NCBI GenBank assembly: GCA_033297075.1
Contig: MU858326.1
Span: 1 to 31,299 of the forward strand
Direction of reading: 5' to 3'
DNA length: 31,299 bases
DNA from: Rhypophila decipiens
Lineage: Eukaryota > Ascomycota > Sordariomycetes > Sordariales > Naviculisporaceae
Shown here: positions 11,760 to 30,923 of the stretch, one piece after another
Numbering within the stretch: the first letter of the stretch is position 1
Layout of the letters: the number at the start of each line of letters is the position of its first letter
The notes under the pieces: model-generated
Seen by the model: the letters and a program-made list of their open reading frames with translations, nothing else
Databases searched by the model: none
What the model was told of the DNA's origin: nothing
Position numbers and translations under genes: made by a program

Positions 11760-11774
11760 TCACCTGGAGATTCG

Positions 11775-11924
11775 GCTCCTGCACTCCAAGATGAGGCGGT
11801 GGGAGAACAGGTTGCCGAAGTCTGCGACATGATGTCTTCCCTCCACTTAGCTCCTGCACTCCAAGATGAGGCAGTAGGATAACAGGTCGCCGAAGTCTGC
11901 GAAACGATGTCTTCCCTCCACTTG
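11775..11924. repeat. 75-bp tandem duplication just past the TFIIIC stop codon
   Basis: Two copies (11775-11849 and 11850-11924) begin GCTCCTGCACTCCAAGATGA and end CTTCCCTCCACTT. They differ at about seven positions. The period is 25 codons and the first copy is in the TFIIIC frame: TAG at 11757-11759, five codons, then APALQDEAVGEQVAEVCDMM. The equivalent frame in copy 2 has a TAA where copy 1 has GAA. The minus strand is also open and repeats GGKTS-RRLR-PV. Confidence 0.85.
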
Positions 11925-12843: not shown

Positions 12844-13077
12844 TCTCTTGGAGTCGCACTTTTGGACATCAGCATGCGTGGCAGAGCTGCCAGAGATACA
12901 TACTAGGCGTGGTAAGTCAGTGTGGCATGCCCATTTACATTAAAAACGGCCCCTTTTCACAGTCTCGCATACTCGTTCAGGATAAGATACTAATGGGATC
13001 AGCAGATTTTATCTAATCCCTTACCGGATAGTCTCAAGCTCCATCCAACAACGACGGGGCCAACCTACATCTATCCA

Positions 13078-14766
13078 ATGATGGGTTCAACATACATTCC
13101 GCAGGGAACTACAACGAAGCTATCCCCGGCTGATAGAGAAGCCTCCATCAAAGCTTCGACCGACAACTTGAGGAGAGAGGCCTTCACCGAATGGCCCAAC
13201 GACGCGGGCTTCGATGGTTTGACGGAACACCGCGGTCCCATCGAGTTGAGCGTCAAGGGGAACATACCTGTCTGGGCAGCAGGCTCGCTATACCGCACCG
13301 GCCCGGGCCAGTGCAAGGTCGACGACACCAAGTCGGGCACGTTTCACGTCTCTCACTGGTTTGACGGACTTGCCCATACCCACCGATTTGATATAGTGCC
13401 ACCCGCCCAAAGCGAAGATGGCCCAGTCAAGGTTCTATACTCGTCCCGCCGCCAATCTGAAAAACTTGCCGCCGATATAAAAAAGAAGGGCATCTTGCGT
13501 TCCATCACATTTGGCCAGAGAGTTGATCCTTGCGTCGGCATCTTCTCCAAATTCGCAAGCGTCTTTAGCAAGCGTCAGGATCTGGTCAACGTTGCGGTGA
13601 CCGTCAACACCAGCATGCCTTCGTTCGGACCTGGAAGCGTTGTCCTTGGAACTGACGCCTCCAACATGTGTCACATCGACCCAGTGACGATGGAGCCCAA
13701 AACGTTCCTCAACCAATCCAACTTGCACCCGGAATTGAAAGGCCACTTTGGCGCAGCCCACGGCCTCGTCGACCCGCAGACAGGTGACTACATCAACTAC
13801 AACCTTGATTTCGGCAAACAGTCCACCTACCGAATTTTCCGGCTCGACGCGGCGACTGCAAAAGCTCATATCTTGGCCGTCATCCCATACAAGCCGGCCT
13901 TCGTGCACAGCTTTTTCATGACGCAGAACTATATAGTCCTCTGCGTGCCGGTAGCACATTACGAATGGAATGGGCTCAAGATCCCGTGGGAAGGTAACAT
14001 GCTTGACGCTTTCAAGCCTTTCGACCCGTCCGAGAAGTGCCGGTGGTTCGTCGTCGACCTGAGGCATGGACGTGGCCTCGTGGCCGAGTTTGAGTCTCCA
14101 GCTCGCTTCTTCTTCCACACAGTCAATGCATTCGAAGAAGAAGACTCTGGGGATATCTACTGTGAGGTCATTGACTTTCCCAATCGCTACATCATCGACG
14201 GCTTCTATTACAACGTCCTTCTCAACCGCAATAACGCGGGAAGAGAGTACTGGGGAAAAGATGGTCAGCTGACAAAGGAGTCGTACCCTCGTCTATGTCG
14301 GTTCCGCCTGCGCAAGCAGGACTTTGTCACAGGCGCGGCATCCTTGCCGGCCCCCGAGTGTGTCATGGAGTTATCGGGCCCTCAGGCTGGTGATTTTCCT
14401 GTCATCAACCCCAACTACAACTGCAAAAGGCACCGCTACGACTACATCCTCACGTCCCGAGGACTCAGCACGTTCTTTGATTCCATCACCAAAGTCGACA
14501 CGGACACTCAGGAGGTTCTCCGATGGGAAGGGCCCCATGGTCACACTCCGGGGGAAGCCATTTTCGTTCCACGCCCGCCAGCCTCTGCCGGTGAGGTCTT
14601 GGACGAGGACGACGGTGTACTATTAAGCGTCATCCTCGACGGTCCGAACCGCACAAGCTACTTGTTGTGTCTGGATGCCAAGACAATGACAGAGTTGGGT
14701 ACTGCTGAGTGCGGGTTTGCTGTGGCTATTGGCCTTCATGGCAGACACGTATCGGTCTCTATCTAG
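13078..14766 (+). CDS. Carotenoid cleavage oxygenase (RPE65/BCO-like family)
   Basis: An intronless gene of 562 residues. The first of two adjacent ATGs is taken as start. GSLYRTGPGQCKVDD and HVSHWFDGLAHTHRF are hallmark N-terminal segments and look closer to animal beta-carotene oxygenases than to plant CCDs or the fungal CAO-1 stilbene cleaver. The four Fe(II)-binding histidines of the seven-bladed propeller are all visible: H228 (FGAAHGL), H277 (AFVHSFF), H347 (RFFFHTVNAFEEE) and H554 (IGLHGRH). Second-shell acidic residues follow H347 and lie in PGEAIFVPRP. All catalytic residues are kept and the length is normal, so it should be an active non-haem iron dioxygenase splitting a polyene double bond. 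The substrate (carotenoid, apocarotenoid or stilbene) cannot be assigned. No phytoene synthase or rhodopsin gene lies nearby. No signal peptide. Confidence 0.93.
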   Translation: MMGSTYIPQGTTTKLSPADREASIKASTDNLRREAFTEWPNDAGFDGLTEHRGPIELSVKGNIPVWAAGSLYRTGPGQCKVDDTKSGTFHVSHWFDGLAHTHRFDIVPPAQSEDGPVKVLYSSRRQSEKLAADIKKKGILRSITFGQRVDPCVGIFSKFASVFSKRQDLVNVAVTVNTSMPSFGPGSVVLGTDASNMCHIDPVTMEPKTFLNQSNLHPELKGHFGAAHGLVDPQTGDYINYNLDFGKQSTYRIFRLDAATAKAHILAVIPYKPAFVHSFFMTQNYIVLCVPVAHYEWNGLKIPWEGNMLDAFKPFDPSEKCRWFVVDLRHGRGLVAEFESPARFFFHTVNAFEEEDSGDIYCEVIDFPNRYIIDGFYYNVLLNRNNAGREYWGKDGQLTKESYPRLCRFRLRKQDFVTGAASLPAPECVMELSGPQAGDFPVINPNYNCKRHRYDYILTSRGLSTFFDSITKVDTDTQEVLRWEGPHGHTPGEAIFVPRPPASAGEVLDEDDGVLLSVILDGPNRTSYLLCLDAKTMTELGTAECGFAVAIGLHGRHVSVSI

Positions 14767-17700: not shown

Positions 17701-18339
17701 CACCCAGCACGAAAGATGCGCAAAGTGGGTGTTCTCTCTGCCGCATCCTTTTCCAACCACTCCACATATGGAATCGCGCACAACTTTTGGTGGAATTACA
17801 CCACTCTTATCACACTTGGCGTTAAGATTAGCGCTGCAGCACTCTCTTTCAAGGAGATTCATGGGAGGGGCTTGCATAATGTGGCTGGCCTCGGCACATT
17901 AGTATTGGACGCAGTTATTCAGCCCCTTCTGGGCAACCATGTAGGCTGATTCGATAATGCGGCGAAGCTAGTTTGAGCGCACCAATATCGACACAGAACG
18001 AGGAGAAAAGCCCGCCCATGGCACACACACACCAGATGCGCTACAATATTGGCCGCGAAGAAACAAGACCACCCCAGGGGTAAGAGTGGGGCTAAGAGTG
18101 GCGAGCACTGTACGTAGTCCATGCCACGCCGGTGAGGGCGGAGCCGTATCTACAGTTTGAGCCGTCATTCAGCTCCTCGCTCTCCTAATTGACGCATAGA
18201 TAAGGAGAATGTCCGTCTCCGCTACTTGTGCGGTAGCGACTGATCGATCCACCGCACTCCATGTGGAGACTCAAGTTAATCATCATCCAGGCCGTTGAAC
18301 ATTCAAGCCCTTGAAGGAACCCAGTCAATATATATTGGG
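14767..18339. other. 3.6-kb gene-poor region
   Basis: 14770-15170 and 15400-16150 are strongly AT-rich with many TATA/ATTA strings and no coding signal, like eroded repeat DNA. A GC-richer island at about 15180-15380 includes a possible nine-codon ORF and coding-like composition but no recognisable protein. ORFs of 80-170 codons at 16203-16553, 16892-17176 and 17394-17949 overlap in several frames and show no motifs or splice structure. 18100-18339 is the patatin promoter. Confidence 0.5.
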
Positions 18340-20073
18340 ATGTCTACCATCGCCTCTCATGTCGAACTCAGCAACGCGCCAGCTCAGGCAGCACCTCCTT
18401 TAGCCCGACCCCATCCATTACGAGACCACCATTTCACGTCTGATGAAGCTATCGACGGCCCATGGGCCAGGAAAGTCGCCATCGCATTCGGTGAGTGGCT
18501 GATGATAAATCATGTTCGATGCAGCATGCTAACAGTGCCTTTTATAGATGGCGGCGGGGTTCGGGGTTACTCAAGCTTGCTGATCCTTAAAAGGATTATG
18601 GAAGAGATCAAGAGGATTGAGCTAGAGCATGATCCCGCAGCGAAATCAAGTGCGTACTATGGATGGCAAGGGCCCCAGAGCCCGGACGGTGGTGATCCTC
18701 CGACTTCCGATGGCGTCTATTTGCCTTGCCATTATTTCGACTACATGGCTGGAACATCGACTGGCGGGTAGGTCTCAATCTGATGTGACTGATGACTGGC
18801 GCATCTCGGCTGACCTGTTTCTAGGCTTTCAGCAATCATGCTGGGCAGGTTGCGCATGTCAGTGGATGATGCGTTAGCACAATACACCCAATTTGGAAAC
18901 GAGGTCTTTGGAAAAGCTAGGTGGTGGCACGAGAGATCCATCCTTTGGTATCCGAGAGCCAAATATCCTAGTAGGAAAGTCAGAGCAGCCTTTAAACGAA
19001 TCATCATGGAGCAGTTGGAGAGAATGGAAGACGGCAACTCCGAGGCTGGATCTGAAGAAAGAGCCTCTCGTGAGCCGTTCAAGTACCGAGAGGATCGAAC
19101 ACGGACGTAAGTGTAACGAAGTCTTACTGTCATTGCCCAGGAGACGTTCACTAAAAGCACGAATCATAGCATGGTGTTCTCTTTTTGTATTGACAAAAAG
19201 TTGGGAGTCGATCGTCCGCACCTATGGCGAACTTATGACAACAACTGGGGAACCAATACCCTTAACGGGTCAAGGGCCCATGATGAGGAAATTTGGAAGG
19301 TTGCGCGTGCAACGTCAGCCGCCCCGAGATATTTCGAGTCGATAAAGTTGGGAGGCAGTGGAAACAGGCAAAAGCATTTCGACGGGGGCATGTGCGCCAA
19401 CAACCCCTCGCTCAAAGCTTTTTGGGAGATTCACCACCTCCATGGCCAGTTGACCCCGGCGTTCTTTGTCAGTATCGGCACCGGCAAGAAATCTCCCGAG
19501 ACTACAGCCGAGGCACGGGTGCGTCTTCGGGACTTTGACAGAGTCACAAAGACCGATGATGTCCGGCGTAAACAGTTCGTCAAGAAATACCTCGAGATTG
19601 GATCGCATTGGAAGGACTTCATGACCGACACCGAGGGCGATCATGGCTACCAGGGCTGGGACAATGTTGGAAGCCTCCAAAACATGCCCCGGGTGCGGTT
19701 CAACGTCGAAGGTGATCTGGCTCGCATTCCTCTCGATGACTGGCGCCCGACAGGTAGCGGCGCAGCTACGCTCGAACAAATGAGATTGGCGACAGAGCAA
19801 TACCTGGACCAAGAAGACCAGAGAACAAAGATAACCGAAGCTGCTCGTACTCTGGTGAGAATCCGGCGCGAACGGTCGAAGACCGAACGTTGGGAATCGT
19901 TTGCCGTCGATGTCACATACCGGTGTCCCAACCCCGAATGCGCTTTAATGCCGCTATACAAGACAAGGGACGAATTTCGAAAACATGTGGAGCTTCCCGG
20001 TGGCCGCCATACAGGCATTGAGGAGGATGGCATCGAGGATTTCTTGAACACCGGCCGGCGATGGATGAGGTAG
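18340..20073 (+). CDS. Patatin-like phospholipase with a C-terminal zinc-finger-like motif
   Basis: Four exons: 18340-18490, 18548-18767, 18825-19106 and 19170-20073 (introns of 57, 57 and 63 bp, donors GTGAGT, GTAGGT, GTAAGT), 518 residues. The first intron splits the oxyanion motif and the second falls right after the nucleophile. The patatin/iPLA2 fold is shown by D-G-G-G-V-R-G at 51-57, GTSTGG with Ser121, ARATSAAPRYF at about 263-273, and the catalytic Asp in DGGMCANNP (D289). These form the Ser/Asp dyad that hydrolyses phospholipid or triacylglycerol acyl esters. The C-terminus has C470-x4-C475 and H490, H498 in a C2H2-like arrangement, which may bind zinc. There is no signal peptide or membrane segment. 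The start is the first ATG in frame. Enzyme class is firm; lipid substrate and any role in the neighbouring peptide locus are unknown. Confidence 0.93.
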
Positions 20074-20587: not shown

Positions 20588-21544
20588 CTAATACAATCGA
20601 GGATTTGGAGCCGGCAAGACGGTAGCCCCCTCCGGAACATCCAACCTGGCCCAATTCCGCTTGTAATCTCTAATAGCATGTTCCTTGCCCCATTCCATAA
20701 GCCCGTCAAAATCACGACACTGCCTTGGCTGGGGATCAAAATCGGCAATGGGCGTATGGTACGTCTTGCGCCAGTTATGCGTGATGATAACCGAGCTTGC
20801 GCTACACATCAGCTCCTCAAGCAAGATATGTAGACAGTGATTCTTGTGATTGTAGAATTCTGCAGATTTGTTGCGCGGGGGGGCATAGTAATGGTCCCAG
20901 TGGACTTGCTTGCGGAGCTCGTCGAGACAATGAATCAGATGGAAGACGTGGATTTGTGCAAAGTACAGAGGTTCGTTGTTGGGGTTGGGGATGTTGCTTG
21001 TGGACAGGTCCCACCAGGCGGGGACCTTTGCAAGGAGAGAGGGGTCACGACCCAGAGCTAGGGCTTGGGAATGGGTTATGGCTGTCATTTCGGAGGTTTC
21101 AAGGGAGAGGGAGTCCCATGCTGCGTCCACTTCTGGGGAGGGCGGCTGGATGTATATCGAGGAGGACTCGTTGGTAGCGTAGTGAGACTTTTGGCGTGAC
21201 GGGAGGAGGTTTCGAAGCTTCAGAGACGAGAAGATGATTTCTGTATGTTGGCGAAGATGTTAGGACGTGCTGTGGTAGGATGGTGAGACGGGACATGCAA
21301 AGGGCAAGGACAAACCATCTTGAGGACCGCTCCATCTAGTGTATGAGTCTTGTGAACTTTGCTTCACCAGATAGCTTACCGTTCCGACGGCCGTGATGGA
21401 TATGATGAGGTTGACGATTGTGAGGACTAGACCCGTACGCCATCTTTTTCGTTGAGCGTGATCTCGGGCATCTGGTGTGATCTGGCCGTTGAGAAGGCCC
21501 TCTTGCGAGCTTGGGTCCTCGTCACTGCTGAACGACTTTGCCAT
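20588..21544 (-). CDS. UstYa-family (DUF3328) peptide-cyclising oxidase, copy 1
   Basis: Exons 21544-21316 and 21240-20588, with a 75-bp intron (donor GTTTGT, branch CCTAAC, acceptor TACAG), 293 residues. There is a short cytosolic N-terminus, a KRWR stop-transfer charge cluster and one membrane helix (about 38-60), then a lumenal domain. Both family motifs are present: HLIHC (H177-C181) in HVFHLIHCLDELRKQVHWDHYY and HKNHC (H208-C212) followed by LHILLEELMC. ITHNWR and the acidic Cys region are also typical. UstYa proteins are thought to use these HxxHC motifs, probably with copper, for oxidative ring closure in ustiloxin, phomopsin, asperipin and cyclochlorotine pathways. The gene is divergent from the repeat-precursor gene at 23605, which supports a shared pathway. 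The stop is TAG; the start is the first ATG. Confidence 0.93.
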
Positions 21545-23604: not shown

Positions 23605-25052
23605 ATGCAGTTCAAGCTCACCTCCGCCATCATGGCCGTCTTCGCCGCCACTGCCCTCGCCGCCCCCTTGGAGGCCCGCGCCGAAGTTGGTATGTTCTGA
23701 TTTCCTTTTCTCCTGCCACAACACCTCACCAACCAATGTTTCCATCGCCTGTAGCCTACACCAAAGGTGACGATGTCAGCGATCCCCCGCAGTTGTCCGT
23801 CGGTATGTTCATGGAAGGCCCGGACCATCTCATGTGGCACTTTATATTTATCTGATGTTTACTGGATGATTATACTGATCCGATATAGCTTACGGTCGGT
23901 ATACGGATGACGTCAAGCCCGTCAAGGAAGTCGATGCTGTTGTCGGTAAGCTTTTCGCTGTTATTTGGGTCTCATCCAGACTCCTTTATTTCTTTGATCT
24001 CTCCCATGATTCACTCCCTCTCATTCCACCTGTGCGCTTTTCTGGCGATCATTTTTCACTATCCTATAGTGTTCGACCGATTTGGCGGGAAGGGCTTCAT
24101 AATCATTCCTCTCCCATTCAATTATCCTCATACCAATATCCCATGTTTTCTTCTATCTGCCCTGTTGTCGCTGAGGTCCCAGTCAATTCTTTCCTCGGTC
24201 TGCTTCGGTCTCTCCACCATTTCATTTGTCATCCCCATACTTATACGAGAGCTATCTATGCCCATCGTTTCCCTACCTGTATTGTTCCCCACGTCTTCGT
24301 TGGCTCTTTGAATCACTTCATCCTTGTCGTCCTGCCATCCAGGTCTCCAGACGAGGCTAGAGGGGCATGAGCAAGTTCAAGGATTGGATTGGGACAAACA
24401 GCCTGTCGCTGCTTTGAAATCCTCAGCCCTGTCTTGCTCCTATCCTCTTGCACTTTCGATGTTCACATTTCCCACTTTTCATCAACCTTTTACCTCATTT
24501 TTCCCCCTGTTTGCTTCGAGAACGGCGTGCTAAACTATTAAAAAAGCATACGGAAGACACACCGACGATGTTCAGCCGGTCAAGAGAGCTGAAGTTGGTA
24601 AGCTTGTTTCATTTCTGGTGTTTATTGATCGAAGGGGTTGTTGGGAGATTGAGGCGCTGTCATATGAGGCCATCATGATTGGCTTCGTTGCGCGGCTGAG
24701 TTTCTGTGCACGCCAAGGGGCTAGCGGATACAGCCGCCTTGGCAGGACCACATCAGGATGACATGCTCGACCAGGCTGCCAGGTCTCATCCCCAAACATC
24801 CTCAATGTTATCCAATCTCCTTTTTCATCACAAATTTTATCAGACCACCATTAACTCATTCGATCCCAGCTTACGGACGGCATACCGATGATGTTGAGCC
24901 AGTGAAGAGTGAGTGAACTACCGATTTCGCTTTTTAATCTTTTTTCATATTAGGTGTCTGCTTCAGACAGTGGACAGCATTCACTTGGAATTTTCCCTTC
25001 CTTCCACCCTTTTTCATCGCTGACTAACAATATGGCTACAGACTTTGAGTAA
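23605..25052 (+). CDS. Putative secreted RiPP precursor with exon-encoded core repeats (dikaritin-like)
   Basis: Six exons: 23605-23689, 23755-23802, 23889-23945, 24547-24597, 24870-24908, 25042-25052; 96 residues. Introns are 65, 86, 601, 272 and 133 bp, with donors GTATGT, GTATGT, GTAAGC, GTAAGC, GTGAGT. All junctions are phase 1 and the frame holds to TAA. Exon 1 encodes a signal peptide (MQFKLTSAIMAVFAATALA, then APLEAR). Exons 3, 4 and 5 each encode one repeat: AYGRYTDDVKPVK, AYGRHTDDVQPVKR, AYGRHTDDVEPVK. Exon 2 is a diverged copy (AYTKGDDVSDP). Linkers R-A-E-V recur, and KR after repeat 4 is a Kex2-type site. Two UstYa genes flank it, so the repeats are the likely substrates, with Tyr the probable cross-linked residue. 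Without the last intron the reading would end two codons later in exon 5 (TGA). Other possibilities are a pheromone-like or surface repeat peptide. Not a family I recognise. Confidence 0.82.
23889..24908 (+). repeat. Three dispersed near-identical exon repeats (A-Y-G-R-[YH]-T-D-D-V-x-P-V-K)
   Basis: Copies at 23889-23945, 24547-24597 and 24870-24908 share ten of twelve positions after the split alanine. Position 5 is Y/H and position 10 is K/Q/E. Synonymous sites differ freely (GGTCGG, GGAAGA, GGACGG), so the peptide is conserved rather than the DNA. Introns 3 and 4 both begin GTAAGCTT and introns 1 and 2 both begin GTATGTTC, which suggests whole exon-plus-donor duplication. Confidence 0.85.
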
Positions 25053-27142: not shown

Positions 27143-28205
27143 ATGGGCTCTCCAGCGTTCGTCGACCGTTTAAAGTGTCTGTTGAGAAGAGAAGAGCTCT
27201 CCAAGGGGCGGGATTATGCACCTCTCAGACAGAAGCAGAGCCATGAAGAACAGGTAGGAGACAAAGTCGAGTCCCAAGTAATCCTTCTTTGCTAACAGGT
27301 TGCCAGCAACAATATATTCCTCAGACTCCGACAAGCTCCCGCATCTTCTTGTGGTTGAACTGCAGTCTCTTCATTGTCTCTGTGGTGTGCCTTGGTCTTT
27401 CGTACAGGCAGTCTCACCGGTCATACACATGGCATCTTAAACATACGCTAGGATATTGTACGTGCTCTGCCATCCACTGACTCTATGAATGCTAACATGC
27501 TCCACAGCTCCATTCCTTGAGAGACTTGACCTTGGCGAGGGCGTCCCTCGGTTGGAGGAGAACGAACTTTTCGACCGCCCAAACGCATACAAAATATATC
27601 GTGGCCCACCATCCAAAGAAGTAGACGATGCATGGGAGGCCATCTCTGAGGTCGGAGTCGTGCTGATCTCTGGAGACGAGGTGCGAAAGGTCGGAAAGGA
27701 CACATCCAAGACCGTCAAAGCTCCTTCACACTGGGGCCACGGCGATGATGCCTATCTTGCCCAGGTAGATGGGCAGCATCGCATTCACTGTCTAAACGTC
27801 CTCCGAAAGTGGATGCACTACGACCATTACTTCAAGCCCAAGCTGGGAGAGAACCCGGGCATCATCCAGCTTGCCCACAGAGACCACTGTCTGGTGTTGC
27901 TCTTGCAGACACTGACCTGCCATGTGAGTCTGGACGTCATTACGCACAACTGGATGGACACGCAGGGGTATCCGGTCCCGGATTTCAACATGAATCGCAA
28001 ATGCATGAACCATGACAGGATCTTGGAGTGGCAGGAGAAGAGCAGGATTAGCATGGAGCAATGGGACGAAATTCGGCCACAGGAGGGTGATTACGTGTTG
28101 CCCTTGTGGCCGGAGTTGGTCGAGTTGAACAAGCTGCACGGGTACAAAGTTACGTACCAGAACAGTACCTCTTTTCATGACAATGGTTTTGAGTGGGGGC
28201 ATTGA
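27143..28205 (+). CDS. UstYa-family (DUF3328) peptide-cyclising oxidase, copy 2
   Basis: Exons 27143-27253, 27307-27457 and 27508-28205 with introns of 53 and 50 bp (donors GTAGGA and GTACGT; the second has branch GCTAAC), 319 residues. The start at 27143 is chosen because it yields the family-type N-terminus with R-D-Y-A-P-L-R before the membrane helix (about 49-70, IFLWLNCSLFIVSVVCLGL). Both motifs are intact: HRIHC (H178-C182) in GQHRIHCLNVLRKWMHYDHY and HRDHC (H211-C215) followed by LVLLLQTLTC; ITHNW is also present. The protein has clearly diverged from copy 1, so the two may do different ring-closing or dehydrogenation steps, as UstYa and UstYb do. It lies downstream of the precursor gene on the same strand. 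The acceptor of intron 1 has an alternative 8 bp upstream, which breaks the frame. Confidence 0.92.
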
Positions 28206-28799
28206 GTAGGTAGCGCGGGGCAACTTTGGTGTGAAGTCGCTTGGTATAGAATACGTAGTAAGTTAAACCAGTGGCGCCAAACACCAATCGCTAGGACAAA
28301 GAATAATATTTCCTTGTGATTTTGGCGTTCGAATTACAATATAGAGTTTATGGTCAACGTTGAGTTTTAGAAAGGTAGTCTTGCATACGTCGTCTAACAT
28401 CACGACCACAAAAACCAAAAATAAAGTTTTCATCATCATTAAAAAGTATAATATAAAAACCTAAAATGTTGCCGCGGAATTTGACTTCAAATGACTGTAT
28501 CGGCGAGAGTGTAAGACCGATGAGTTACTGACTGTTTTGACTTTTTATATCCTGAACTTTATTGAGGGGAGCAGATATTTAAGTTCAATTTTGCGGCGAA
28601 TTCAGCTGACTTTACACTGGGAAGCTTTGTGGGTAAATCCGGGAGATAAAACCCCGACTGGGGTGCCCTACTTGAAACTCTTTCTCTTTCCGACAAAACA
28701 ACAGTCAGAGTTGAATCTCCTCAAGCATCCCCTTACACCCAGCCAGGCAAATAATTTCCGACCCTTAACTCAACTTGGAGAATCCATCCACCATTCACC
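28206..28799. other. AT-rich spacer before the M61 peptidase gene
   Basis: No gene. It contains an AATAAA at 28420-28425, which may serve the UstYa 3' end, and a CT-rich leader from about 28675 to 28799. Confidence 0.55.
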
Positions 28800-30923
28800 A
28801 TGCGCGTAACTCACATTTCTGTCGACCTGACGGAAGCCAATCGGTATATTGTTCACGCAAAGATTGAGCTCCCCGTACAGCCTGGGACCATCGCGCGCTT
28901 CACCACACCGGTCTGGTTAACAGAATCTCACGAGAGGAATGGTCCAGTTTGGGCTCTGGCGGGTCTCCACTTCTTCTGTCATCAAAAGGAGCTCACAACC
29001 GAGTTGAAATGGTCACGGGATCCACAAGCAGGCCATGAGTATCTCCTGCATGTTCCCCGAGACGTGGATACTATACATGGCGAATTCGACGCAATTATCA
29101 CCAAAAATGTCACTCGGCGAATCATATTGTTTCAATGGGTACATGTTTTGTTATATCCCATCTGTAACAGCGAGAGCCGGGGCAGCTCCCGATTCAACAT
29201 CCACAAGATACCCATCCAAGCCACGGTGACGGTGCCGAAAGGATGGGGAATAGCCACCGCCTTGGAGAATCTAGGGGATCCCATCGTCGTTGCGGACGAG
29301 ACAAAAGAGACATACACGTATGCAACCACGACCGTCCAAGGCCTCGCTGACTCTCCCATTCTCGCTGGCCTGTTTTTCAAAACGCATCGCATCGAGGGGT
29401 CCTCGAATGAACAGACTCGGGAAGTCCTCTGCATTGCCGCTGACCAAGAGCAATACGTCGCCATCACCCCACCTTCCCTCGACAATCTCTCCAAAATAAT
29501 CTCCCAGGTCCAGCTCCTCTTTGGCGGTGGACCTCCGCCATATGCGCCTTCTCCGGCCCAACCCCTCCAACCAGCCCAGAAAGCGGAGCCGGAAAAACGG
29601 ACCAGATATTTCTTCCTCGTTGCCCTGTCCTCTCACCTCGACAACTGGGGCGGAGTGGAGCATCTGTACTCCACAGCAATCGTCGCCCGCTTGATGGCCT
29701 TCTCTTACTCGACACAGACGAAGGAAACCCTCCAGCTACTGGCACATGAGTACATCCACAGCTGGAACGGCAAGCGCTTGATACCGAAAGGGCATAATCC
29801 CAACGACTTTAACACCCCATTAGATGGCCGTTTGCTCTGGGTCTATGAAGGGCTTACTACCTATTATGAGACCGTCATTGCCGCGCGGGCTGGTGTTTTG
29901 AGCAAGGAAGAATGGGTCTCGCAACTAGCAAGCCACGTGGCCGAGCGGATGGGAGAAACGGCGACACAGTGGAGAAGTCTGGAAGATCTCGGGACTGGCA
30001 ATGACGTTGATCATATGGGAGCGAGAGTGGACAGCTGGCGCAGCTGGAGGGGCGACCGGGATGGATTCTACAACGGTGGGGCCCTGGTGTGGCTGGGTGT
30101 CGATGTTTTGCTCAGGCGACTTACCGCCAAGTCGAAGACGGGGGCAAAGTCCCTGGATGATTTTATGGAACTGTTTTTTGGGTTACCCAGAGAGCCGGGA
30201 GATAAAATTTCCCGATGGAGCGAGAGCGTACCAGAATTACAGCACAGACGGAGAGGCGCGACGCTGATTGAATACACGCTTGATGACATTGCTCGTGAGT
30301 TGAACAAGATCTGCGAGTACGATTGGAAGGGTCACTTCCAGGCCACCGTCGTGGATGTCCTGCCTGAGGTGGACATGTCTGGCATCGCAAATGCAGGATA
30401 CACCTTTCGATGGGACGCCGATGCATGGACGATGAAGTTGCCTCACAAAGACCGACACTCAGCGGAAGAGCACAAGCATGTTGCAGATGAAAGGAAGATT
30501 GATGACGATGACATGCAGGATGCGATATGGAACTCCATCGGTATTTTAGTCTCCTGGAATGGAGAAGTCATTGACGTGCGACGTTGGGGACCGGGCGATG
30601 CGGCAGGATTGGCCCCGCGACAACGTATTGCAGAGGTCTATGATCCTTGTGTACCATCGTCCCGTGAAGATGATGAGTGCAGCGTGTTTCGCAAGTTCGG
30701 CGGTCTGTCTCTACTTGTCAAGGCTATAAGGAAGTCCGCTGACACGAAAGAGCCGATAAAGCTTTTGATGACTCATCAGCGAGATAACTGGACTGCAGAG
30801 ATTCAATATCTTGATGGGATACGGTACCCAGTCATTGAGAGAGATGAAGACGGTGGCTTGTCGGATTTGTTTGAAGACATATTACGGCCACTGGCACCTT
30901 CCTACCAGCTAGTTCACAGATAA
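28800..30923 (+). CDS. M61-family (glycyl aminopeptidase-like) metallopeptidase with PDZ-like C-terminus
   Basis: An intronless gene of 707 residues; the first ATG is used. The N-terminal beta domain starts VTHISVDLTEANRYIVHAKI, matching the M61 N-terminal domain. WGGVEHLYSTAI at about 283-294 is the family's substrate-side motif. The zinc site is HEYIH (316-320) followed by SWNGKRLIP, with third ligand Glu350 in VYEGLTTYYE. A PDZ-like region (about 567-680, with GILVSWNG and RRWGPGDAAGL) closes the protein. It has no signal peptide or membrane segment, so it is probably cytosolic. M61 enzymes are mainly bacterial and cleave N-terminal small residues. The lack of introns, unlike most neighbours, fits acquisition from bacteria. 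It could trim peptides from the nearby RiPP pathway, but the location argues for caution. Family assignment is secure; role is inference. Confidence 0.93.
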   Translation: MRVTHISVDLTEANRYIVHAKIELPVQPGTIARFTTPVWLTESHERNGPVWALAGLHFFCHQKELTTELKWSRDPQAGHEYLLHVPRDVDTIHGEFDAIITKNVTRRIILFQWVHVLLYPICNSESRGSSRFNIHKIPIQATVTVPKGWGIATALENLGDPIVVADETKETYTYATTTVQGLADSPILAGLFFKTHRIEGSSNEQTREVLCIAADQEQYVAITPPSLDNLSKIISQVQLLFGGGPPPYAPSPAQPLQPAQKAEPEKRTRYFFLVALSSHLDNWGGVEHLYSTAIVARLMAFSYSTQTKETLQLLAHEYIHSWNGKRLIPKGHNPNDFNTPLDGRLLWVYEGLTTYYETVIAARAGVLSKEEWVSQLASHVAERMGETATQWRSLEDLGTGNDVDHMGARVDSWRSWRGDRDGFYNGGALVWLGVDVLLRRLTAKSKTGAKSLDDFMELFFGLPREPGDKISRWSESVPELQHRRRGATLIEYTLDDIARELNKICEYDWKGHFQATVVDVLPEVDMSGIANAGYTFRWDADAWTMKLPHKDRHSAEEHKHVADERKIDDDDMQDAIWNSIGILVSWNGEVIDVRRWGPGDAAGLAPRQRIAEVYDPCVPSSREDDECSVFRKFGGLSLLVKAIRKSADTKEPIKLLMTHQRDNWTAEIQYLDGIRYPVIERDEDGGLSDLFEDILRPLAPSYQLVHR

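Follow-up and report, generated by a model that had tools for sequence, protein, structure and literature searches.

The closest described counterparts of the gene reported here are the dikaritin precursors of ustiloxin, phomopsin and asperipin-2a, which share with it a signal peptide, a short repeated core containing Tyr and adjoining UstYa (DUF3328) genes (PMC7329392). Dikaritin clusters have been defined by five genes including a tyrosinase, a methyltransferase and a transporter or peptidase, and clusters without some of these were described later (PMC12048977). A wider group of secreted repeat proteins with short repeats, the KEPs (Umemura 2020), was delimited by the rule that at least three repeats, each of at least 8 aa, lie between Kex2 sites (KR, KK, RK or RR), and that survey reports that 6,120 of 7,878 KEPs had no DUF3328 gene nearby, that Tyr-containing repeats amounted to 65.6% in KEPs near DUF3328 genes vs 38.2% elsewhere, and that the repeats comprised 838 types plus 2,560 stand-alone ones (PMC7329392). 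According to the same text, the epichloecyclin precursor GigA from Epichloe, which we liken to our gene by description only, is also secreted and multi-core and yields cyclic peptides, and Neurospora POI2, a repeat protein required for perithecial development, is called a homolog of the ustiloxin and phomopsin precursors (PMC7329392).

We analysed a stretch of 31,299 b, hereafter the window, which forms one contig (C282) of the 45.7-Mb assembly (408 contigs) of Rhypophila decipiens, a dung fungus of the Sordariales. The gene of interest likely encodes a precursor for a ribosomal peptide modified by UstYa enzymes, that is, a dikaritin-like RiPP, whose cores would have been gained and lost as whole frame-neutral exons. 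The preliminary description had likened it to dikaritin precursors, and as regards secretion, repeats and UstYa genes on both sides this comparison stood, while a Kex2 site between the repeats was mostly absent (one KR), so that the precursor is not of the standard ustiloxin type. In contrast to the dikaritin precursors, its cores lie in separate exons and a single Kex2-type site occurs in all; because there is just one dibasic site, it also fails the KEP rule, although it resembles KEPs as a secreted protein with short repeats. UstYa-linked repeat precursors with very diverse repeats are known already, and this published diversity makes a new core in itself less surprising (PMC7329392). What is new is the symmetrical exon cassette together with the near-absence of Kex2 sites; a narrow phrase search, in a collection that leaves out most subscription journals, found no published description of one core per exon. 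To our knowledge, the core AYGR[YH]TDDV is unlike the cores of ustiloxin, phomopsin and asperipin-2a.

Exon structure of the precursor gene

The gene extends from 23605 to 25052 on the plus strand and encodes a secreted-type protein of 96 aa in six exons. Exon 1 (23605..23689, +) encodes the signal peptide and leader, MQFKLTSAIMAVFAATALAAPLEARAEV, and is followed by the donor GTATGT in phase 1; exon 2 (23755..23802, +) contributes the diverged unit, AYTKGDDVSDPPQLSV, exon 3 (23889..23945, +) the unit AYGRYTDDVKPVKEVDAVV, the first base of whose Ala codon is located in exon 2, exon 4 (24547..24597, +) the unit AYGRHTDDVQPVKRAEV with the sole dibasic (KR) site of the protein, and exon 5 (24870..24908, +) the unit AYGRHTDDVEPVK, while the small exon 6 (25042..25052, +) adds NFE before the stop codon TAA. 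These parts are joined in the order given, and each intron leaves the first base of the following codon on the upstream exon. All five introns (65, 86, 601, 272 and 133 nt) are of the GT-AG type and in phase 1, so the repeat exons are without exception symmetrical (phase 1-1), with the cut placed between the spacer and the core Ala and one unit starting each exon. The N-terminus, which consists of MQFK, a hydrophobic stretch and ALAAP and has a mean hydropathy of 1.96 over residues 5-20, was judged by eye to be a signal peptide, and the leader of exon 1 is also kept in the sister protein V8F33_003722 (P0001) of Rhypophila sp. PSN 637. The precursor corresponds to the GenBank protein QBC37DRAFT_406585 (P0002), deposited as a hypothetical protein, whose units and their order are identical to those of the six-exon model; after the last PVK it continues with 35 different residues from an alternative last exon, the acceptor of which lies, by eye, 8 bases downstream of that in our model. 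The C-terminal NFE of the six-exon model is matched by the deposited sister model, and the splice sites, conservation and deposited models together point to the six-exon splicing proposed here. Our gene model, with its six exons and five GT-AG introns, reproduces the coordinates that the preliminary description had given, and confirms that observation.

Intron 3 (23946-24546), at 601 nt, is long by fungal standards, and its acceptor, TAAAAAAG, has no adjoining pyrimidine tract. Ungapped 13-aa comparisons found no fossil unit in the introns of the precursor gene (at most 5/13 matches), and the flanks of the introns showed no convincing likeness of the kind expected from recent exon duplication (at most 17/40 identical). 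The first 8 bases are common to introns 1 and 2, and likewise to introns 3 and 4, which may reflect the donor consensus only.

Repeat units and relatives of the precursor

The precursor carries three units of the form AYGR[YH]TDDVxPVK and a diverged fourth. On the DNA level the repeats span 40 nt and begin at 23887, 24545 and 24868, the second being 70% and the third 80% identical to the first. The best pair of 13-aa segments on the same strand within 2.3 kb agreed at 12 of 13 positions, compared with a best pair of 7/13 in 43 and of 8/13 in 17 of 60 Markov-simulated versions of this stretch. Among the codons differing between units, synonymous changes outnumbered nonsynonymous ones in all three pairs (8/2, 6/2 and 6/1), which argues for purifying selection on the peptide. 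The repeats represent a peptide maintained by selection rather than a product of chance. When the complete genome was searched with a degenerate core pattern allowing up to two mismatches, all three occurrences fell into the precursor gene, and a reversed control gave none. Similarly, the sister protein P0001 as query matched five places in this genome, every one inside the precursor gene. A more distant relative, the metagenomic protein P0003, gave no match in the same search, though the precursor gene is its relative, and empty results of such searches on short exons consequently mean little.

Comparison of the precursor with Pfam and PDB yielded nothing significant; the Pfam entry APC_u13 (E 0.043, below its cut-off) and one PDB chain (E 0.37) were taken as chance matches. 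The relatives P0001 and P0003 likewise had no match in Pfam or NCBIfam, and four core strings were absent from the literature searched, a body of text from which most subscription journals are missing. Within the limits of these collections, the earlier statement that the core is not recognisable was borne out.

In the protein database, seven candidates were scored with the precursor as query and three matched: the precursor itself (P0002), P0001 (E 6.6e-54) and P0003 (E 1.2e-10). The PSN 637 protein has the same design and one additional unit, AYGRHTDDIKEVSPAAAV, which sits between the diverged unit, here AYTKGDDVTDPPQSSV, and the first close unit. P0003 contains four AYGR[YH]TDDV units. Across these three relatives AYGR[YH]TDD[VI] was kept in 11 of 13 units, the exceptions being the first, diverged unit in each of the two Rhypophila proteins, and the Tyr was retained in all 13. 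The core is better conserved than the spacers, which vary. In P0003 the segment GELPCLLPLVFIVSLRSPNAIFHL, which precedes the last core, looks like an unspliced phase-1 intron of 72 nt in the corresponding position, where the spacer meets the core Ala. Should P0003 have been predicted without introns, one exon would hold its first three units, and the strict layout of one core per exon may be limited to Rhypophila. Moreover, P0003 contains an H-type unit ending in PAAAV that is followed by a Y-type unit, which parallels the additional unit of P0001 and its successor. This parallel of five spacer residues and unit order suggests that R. decipiens lost the additional exon; given the lack of a fossil match in the introns, the missing unit left no detectable trace there.

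UstYa neighbourhood and other precursors in the genome

The precursor gene is flanked by two genes of the UstYa family. The first, UstYa#1 (QBC37DRAFT_406584, P0012, 293 aa), occupies 20588..21544 on the minus strand in two exons (21544-21316 and 21240-20588, junction set by eye) and matches PF11807 with an E-value of 2.4e-36 at 20588-21259 (-), or 1.2e-39 for P0012. The second, UstYa#2, occupies 27143..28205 on the plus strand in three exons (27143-27253, 27307-27457 and 27508-28205, set by eye against its PSN 637 ortholog P0004), and its last exon matches PF11807 with 5.1e-45 at 27489-28202 (+). Both proteins have an N-terminal hydrophobic stretch and two HxxHC motifs (HLIHC and HKNHC in UstYa#1, HRIHC and HRDHC in UstYa#2). 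The start of UstYa#1 (21544, -) and the ATG of the precursor are 2.06 kb apart, the precursor stop (25052) and the start of UstYa#2 (about 27143) 2.09 kb, and the GenBank numbers of UstYa#1 (406584) and the precursor (406585) are consecutive. The gene model, the PF11807 matches and the HxxHC motifs thus bear out the earlier picture of a secreted-type precursor, flanked by UstYa genes, in which every repeat has its own exon. Genome-wide there were 67 UstYa exon matches, which when roughly merged correspond to about 49 genes; 0.47% of the genome lies within 2.5 kb of a UstYa gene, and the 0.08% (36 kb, including 6.1 kb of the window) that is enclosed by a pair of UstYa genes separated by no more than 6.2 kb is a background rate and not the outcome of a test planned beforehand.

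P0004 is 94% identical to UstYa#2, and P0001 and P0004 are each encoded on a PSN 637 contig of 312,476 b, which we take to be one and the same contig. The preliminary description had regarded a conserved homolog of the precursor in genomes with no UstYa gene nearby as evidence against its proposal; the comparison with PSN 637 gave no such case, as the sister precursor and the UstYa#2 ortholog are on contigs of equal size and may be linked. No separate PSN 637 ortholog of UstYa#1 appeared among the matches listed, and the three-member cluster of UstYa#1 at 90% identity in the database may contain it. P0005 (86% identical to UstYa#2) and P0013 (79% identical to UstYa#1) share the source 'lgn' with P0003 but lie on different contigs, and possibly all three belong to one organism. 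More distant relatives of UstYa#2, at 65-67% identity, occur in Grosmannia clavigera (CMQ_2462) and Stachybotrys elegans (B0I35DRAFT_359656). The protein search, with its seven scored candidates, returned no precursor from either, which speaks against the proposed pairing, though genome annotation readily misses genes of this kind.

Other UstYa loci of the same genome offered a direct comparison. Repeated 8- and 9-mers were sought in all frames within 1.5 kb on either side of 30 of the 67 UstYa exon matches (L004-L033, two of which are inside the window), and eight further stretches were scanned besides. Three other clear repeat precursors of secreted type were found near UstYa genes. C208 (L018:3329-3825 and L039:1-372; beginning MQLLRN) consists of a signal-type exon and, after an intron placed by eye, one exon with eight Trp-rich [AS]D[ATD]IWLW cores, seven of which are followed by KK (DAIWLWKK). 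C59 (end of L040 and L022:1-188; beginning MRFSFIAALLAG), near two UstYa genes, has a signal-type exon and, again after an intron placed by eye, one exon with PP[SD]W-type cores, counted as eight, or seven on a recount since one core spans the joint of the two loci, with KR after 7/8 (PPP[SD]WKR). C53 (L044:806-1129, -; beginning MKFAIIALVSS), near a UstYa pair, is a single exon with four VVTWADVSK units at 60-nt spacing, three of them followed by KR (VTWADVSKR). These three precursors share a secreted-type leader and repeats near UstYa genes with the window precursor; in contrast to its one Tyr-containing core per exon and single dibasic site, their Trp-containing cores stand in one open frame within one exon, with KK or KR after every core except the last. 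The earlier remark that the split layout is unusual therefore held for all three other precursors at the scanned UstYa loci, and since the scan covered part of the UstYa loci, further exon-split precursors may be present elsewhere in the genome. Two further repeat families were rejected as precursors, CPVVGT at L016 because its one 180-aa frame has no signal-like start and PPQTSYAPP at L042 because it lies in a long ORF. The repeats PVVED[KR] at L007, which are also in one frame, as well as weak families at L017, L019, L032 and L043 and one on the minus strand of the window, were left out of the precursor count.

These observations allow us to weigh other explanations of the gene. It is unlikely that the secreted repeat protein gives rise to linear, unmodified peptides with a pheromone-like, developmental or effector function and that the UstYa genes serve another product. 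The many KEPs without a nearby DUF3328 gene would fit this reading, as would the developmental role of POI2, though the survey regards that protein as homologous to the precursors of ustiloxin and phomopsin (PMC7329392); against it stand the UstYa genes about 2.1 kb away on both sides, the 0.08% background for such a position, the equal length of the sister contigs that carry the UstYa#2 ortholog and the precursor, and the Tyr present in every unit of the three relatives. The scarcity of dibasic cleavage sites might alternatively indicate that the repeat protein functions in its entirety or as spliced modules (as a cell-wall, disordered or effector protein) and releases no small peptide, which we regard as quite improbable in view of the conservation of the core above that of the spacers, the small size of the protein and its UstYa neighbours. 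Finally, an artefact of the gene model in which at least one exon is not spliced in, as the length and acceptor of intron 3 and the differing last exon of the GenBank model could imply, is extremely improbable, given repeats that are under selection despite long non-coding interruptions, five of five introns in phase 1, and a sister model with the same units, one more, and an identical C-terminus.

Processing model and cluster content

With one Tyr-containing core per exon and UstYa genes on both sides, the product of the proposed dikaritin-like precursor is probably a new cyclic peptide of unusual modular build. The higher share of Tyr-containing repeats in KEPs near DUF3328 genes (PMC7329392) also favours the dikaritin-like assignment. 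In this model the signal peptide would direct the spliced precursor to the secretory pathway, where the two membrane-anchored UstYa oxidases would cross-link every core, most likely via the invariant Tyr; the candidate partner is the Y/H position, located three residues further on. Proteases would then release the cores by cutting at the basic unit ends and at the EAR that ends the leader. The close units end in PVK, PVKR and PVK and the diverged unit lacks a basic residue at its end, which calls for either cleavage at single basic residues or a product with several cores; with one dibasic site, a KR, in each of the R. decipiens and PSN 637 precursors (three in P0003), a clean Kex2 release of each core is left unexplained.

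Because each core constitutes a frame-neutral exon, cores could be acquired or dropped as entire exons in the course of evolution, and the PSN 637 precursor exceeds that of R. decipiens by one complete unit. The exon layout thereby offers a concrete route to an altered core set through exon gain, loss or skipping. Including or skipping any repeat exon preserves the frame, and different core sets are thus conceivable from one gene; that alternative splicing indeed generates different sets of core peptides, with lineages altering their product by exon gain and loss, is a rather unlikely extension, which if true would mean that splicing determines the product of a fungal RiPP gene. Furthermore, a precursor that is split at the DNA level and almost devoid of dibasic sites fails a rule applied to proteins, and a class of UstYa products may have been overlooked by the large survey of fungal repeat precursors.

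Among 18 of the 77 window frames of at least 100 aa that were run against Pfam, the recognised families were UstYa, patatin, RPE65, M61 peptidase, C13 peptidase, parts of TFIIIC and, below its cut-off, a histidine phosphatase. The C13 peptidase is, we presume, GPI8-like. Of the further genes in the five-gene definition of dikaritin clusters, no tyrosinase or methyltransferase, and likewise no transporter, was recognised in these 18 frames, on a contig whose ends restrict the view, and the cluster thus looks minimal, comprising the precursor, the two UstYa genes and perhaps the M61 peptidase. The latter, a gene of the glycyl aminopeptidase-like type at 28755-30923, lies about 0.55 kb past UstYa#2 and may either take part in processing or stand there by chance. 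Searches of viral contigs gave 13 pattern matches with UstYa#2 and 45 with the precursor alignment A1, none of which was confirmed. One sequenced strain of R. decipiens, PSN293, is described in a 2025 paper as homothallic and isolated from donkey dung, and the genomes given there include those of the Rhypophila species myriaspora, pleiospora, reunionensis, brasiliensis, camarguensis and alpibus (PMC12734299). Upstream of the precursor, the window also contains genes for an RPE65-type carotenoid oxygenase (12994-14766) and a patatin-like phospholipase (18280-20073), as well as a 75-nt tandem repeat (11774-11896) whose frame yields APALQDEAV and RSLR[HN]DVFPPL, each twice.
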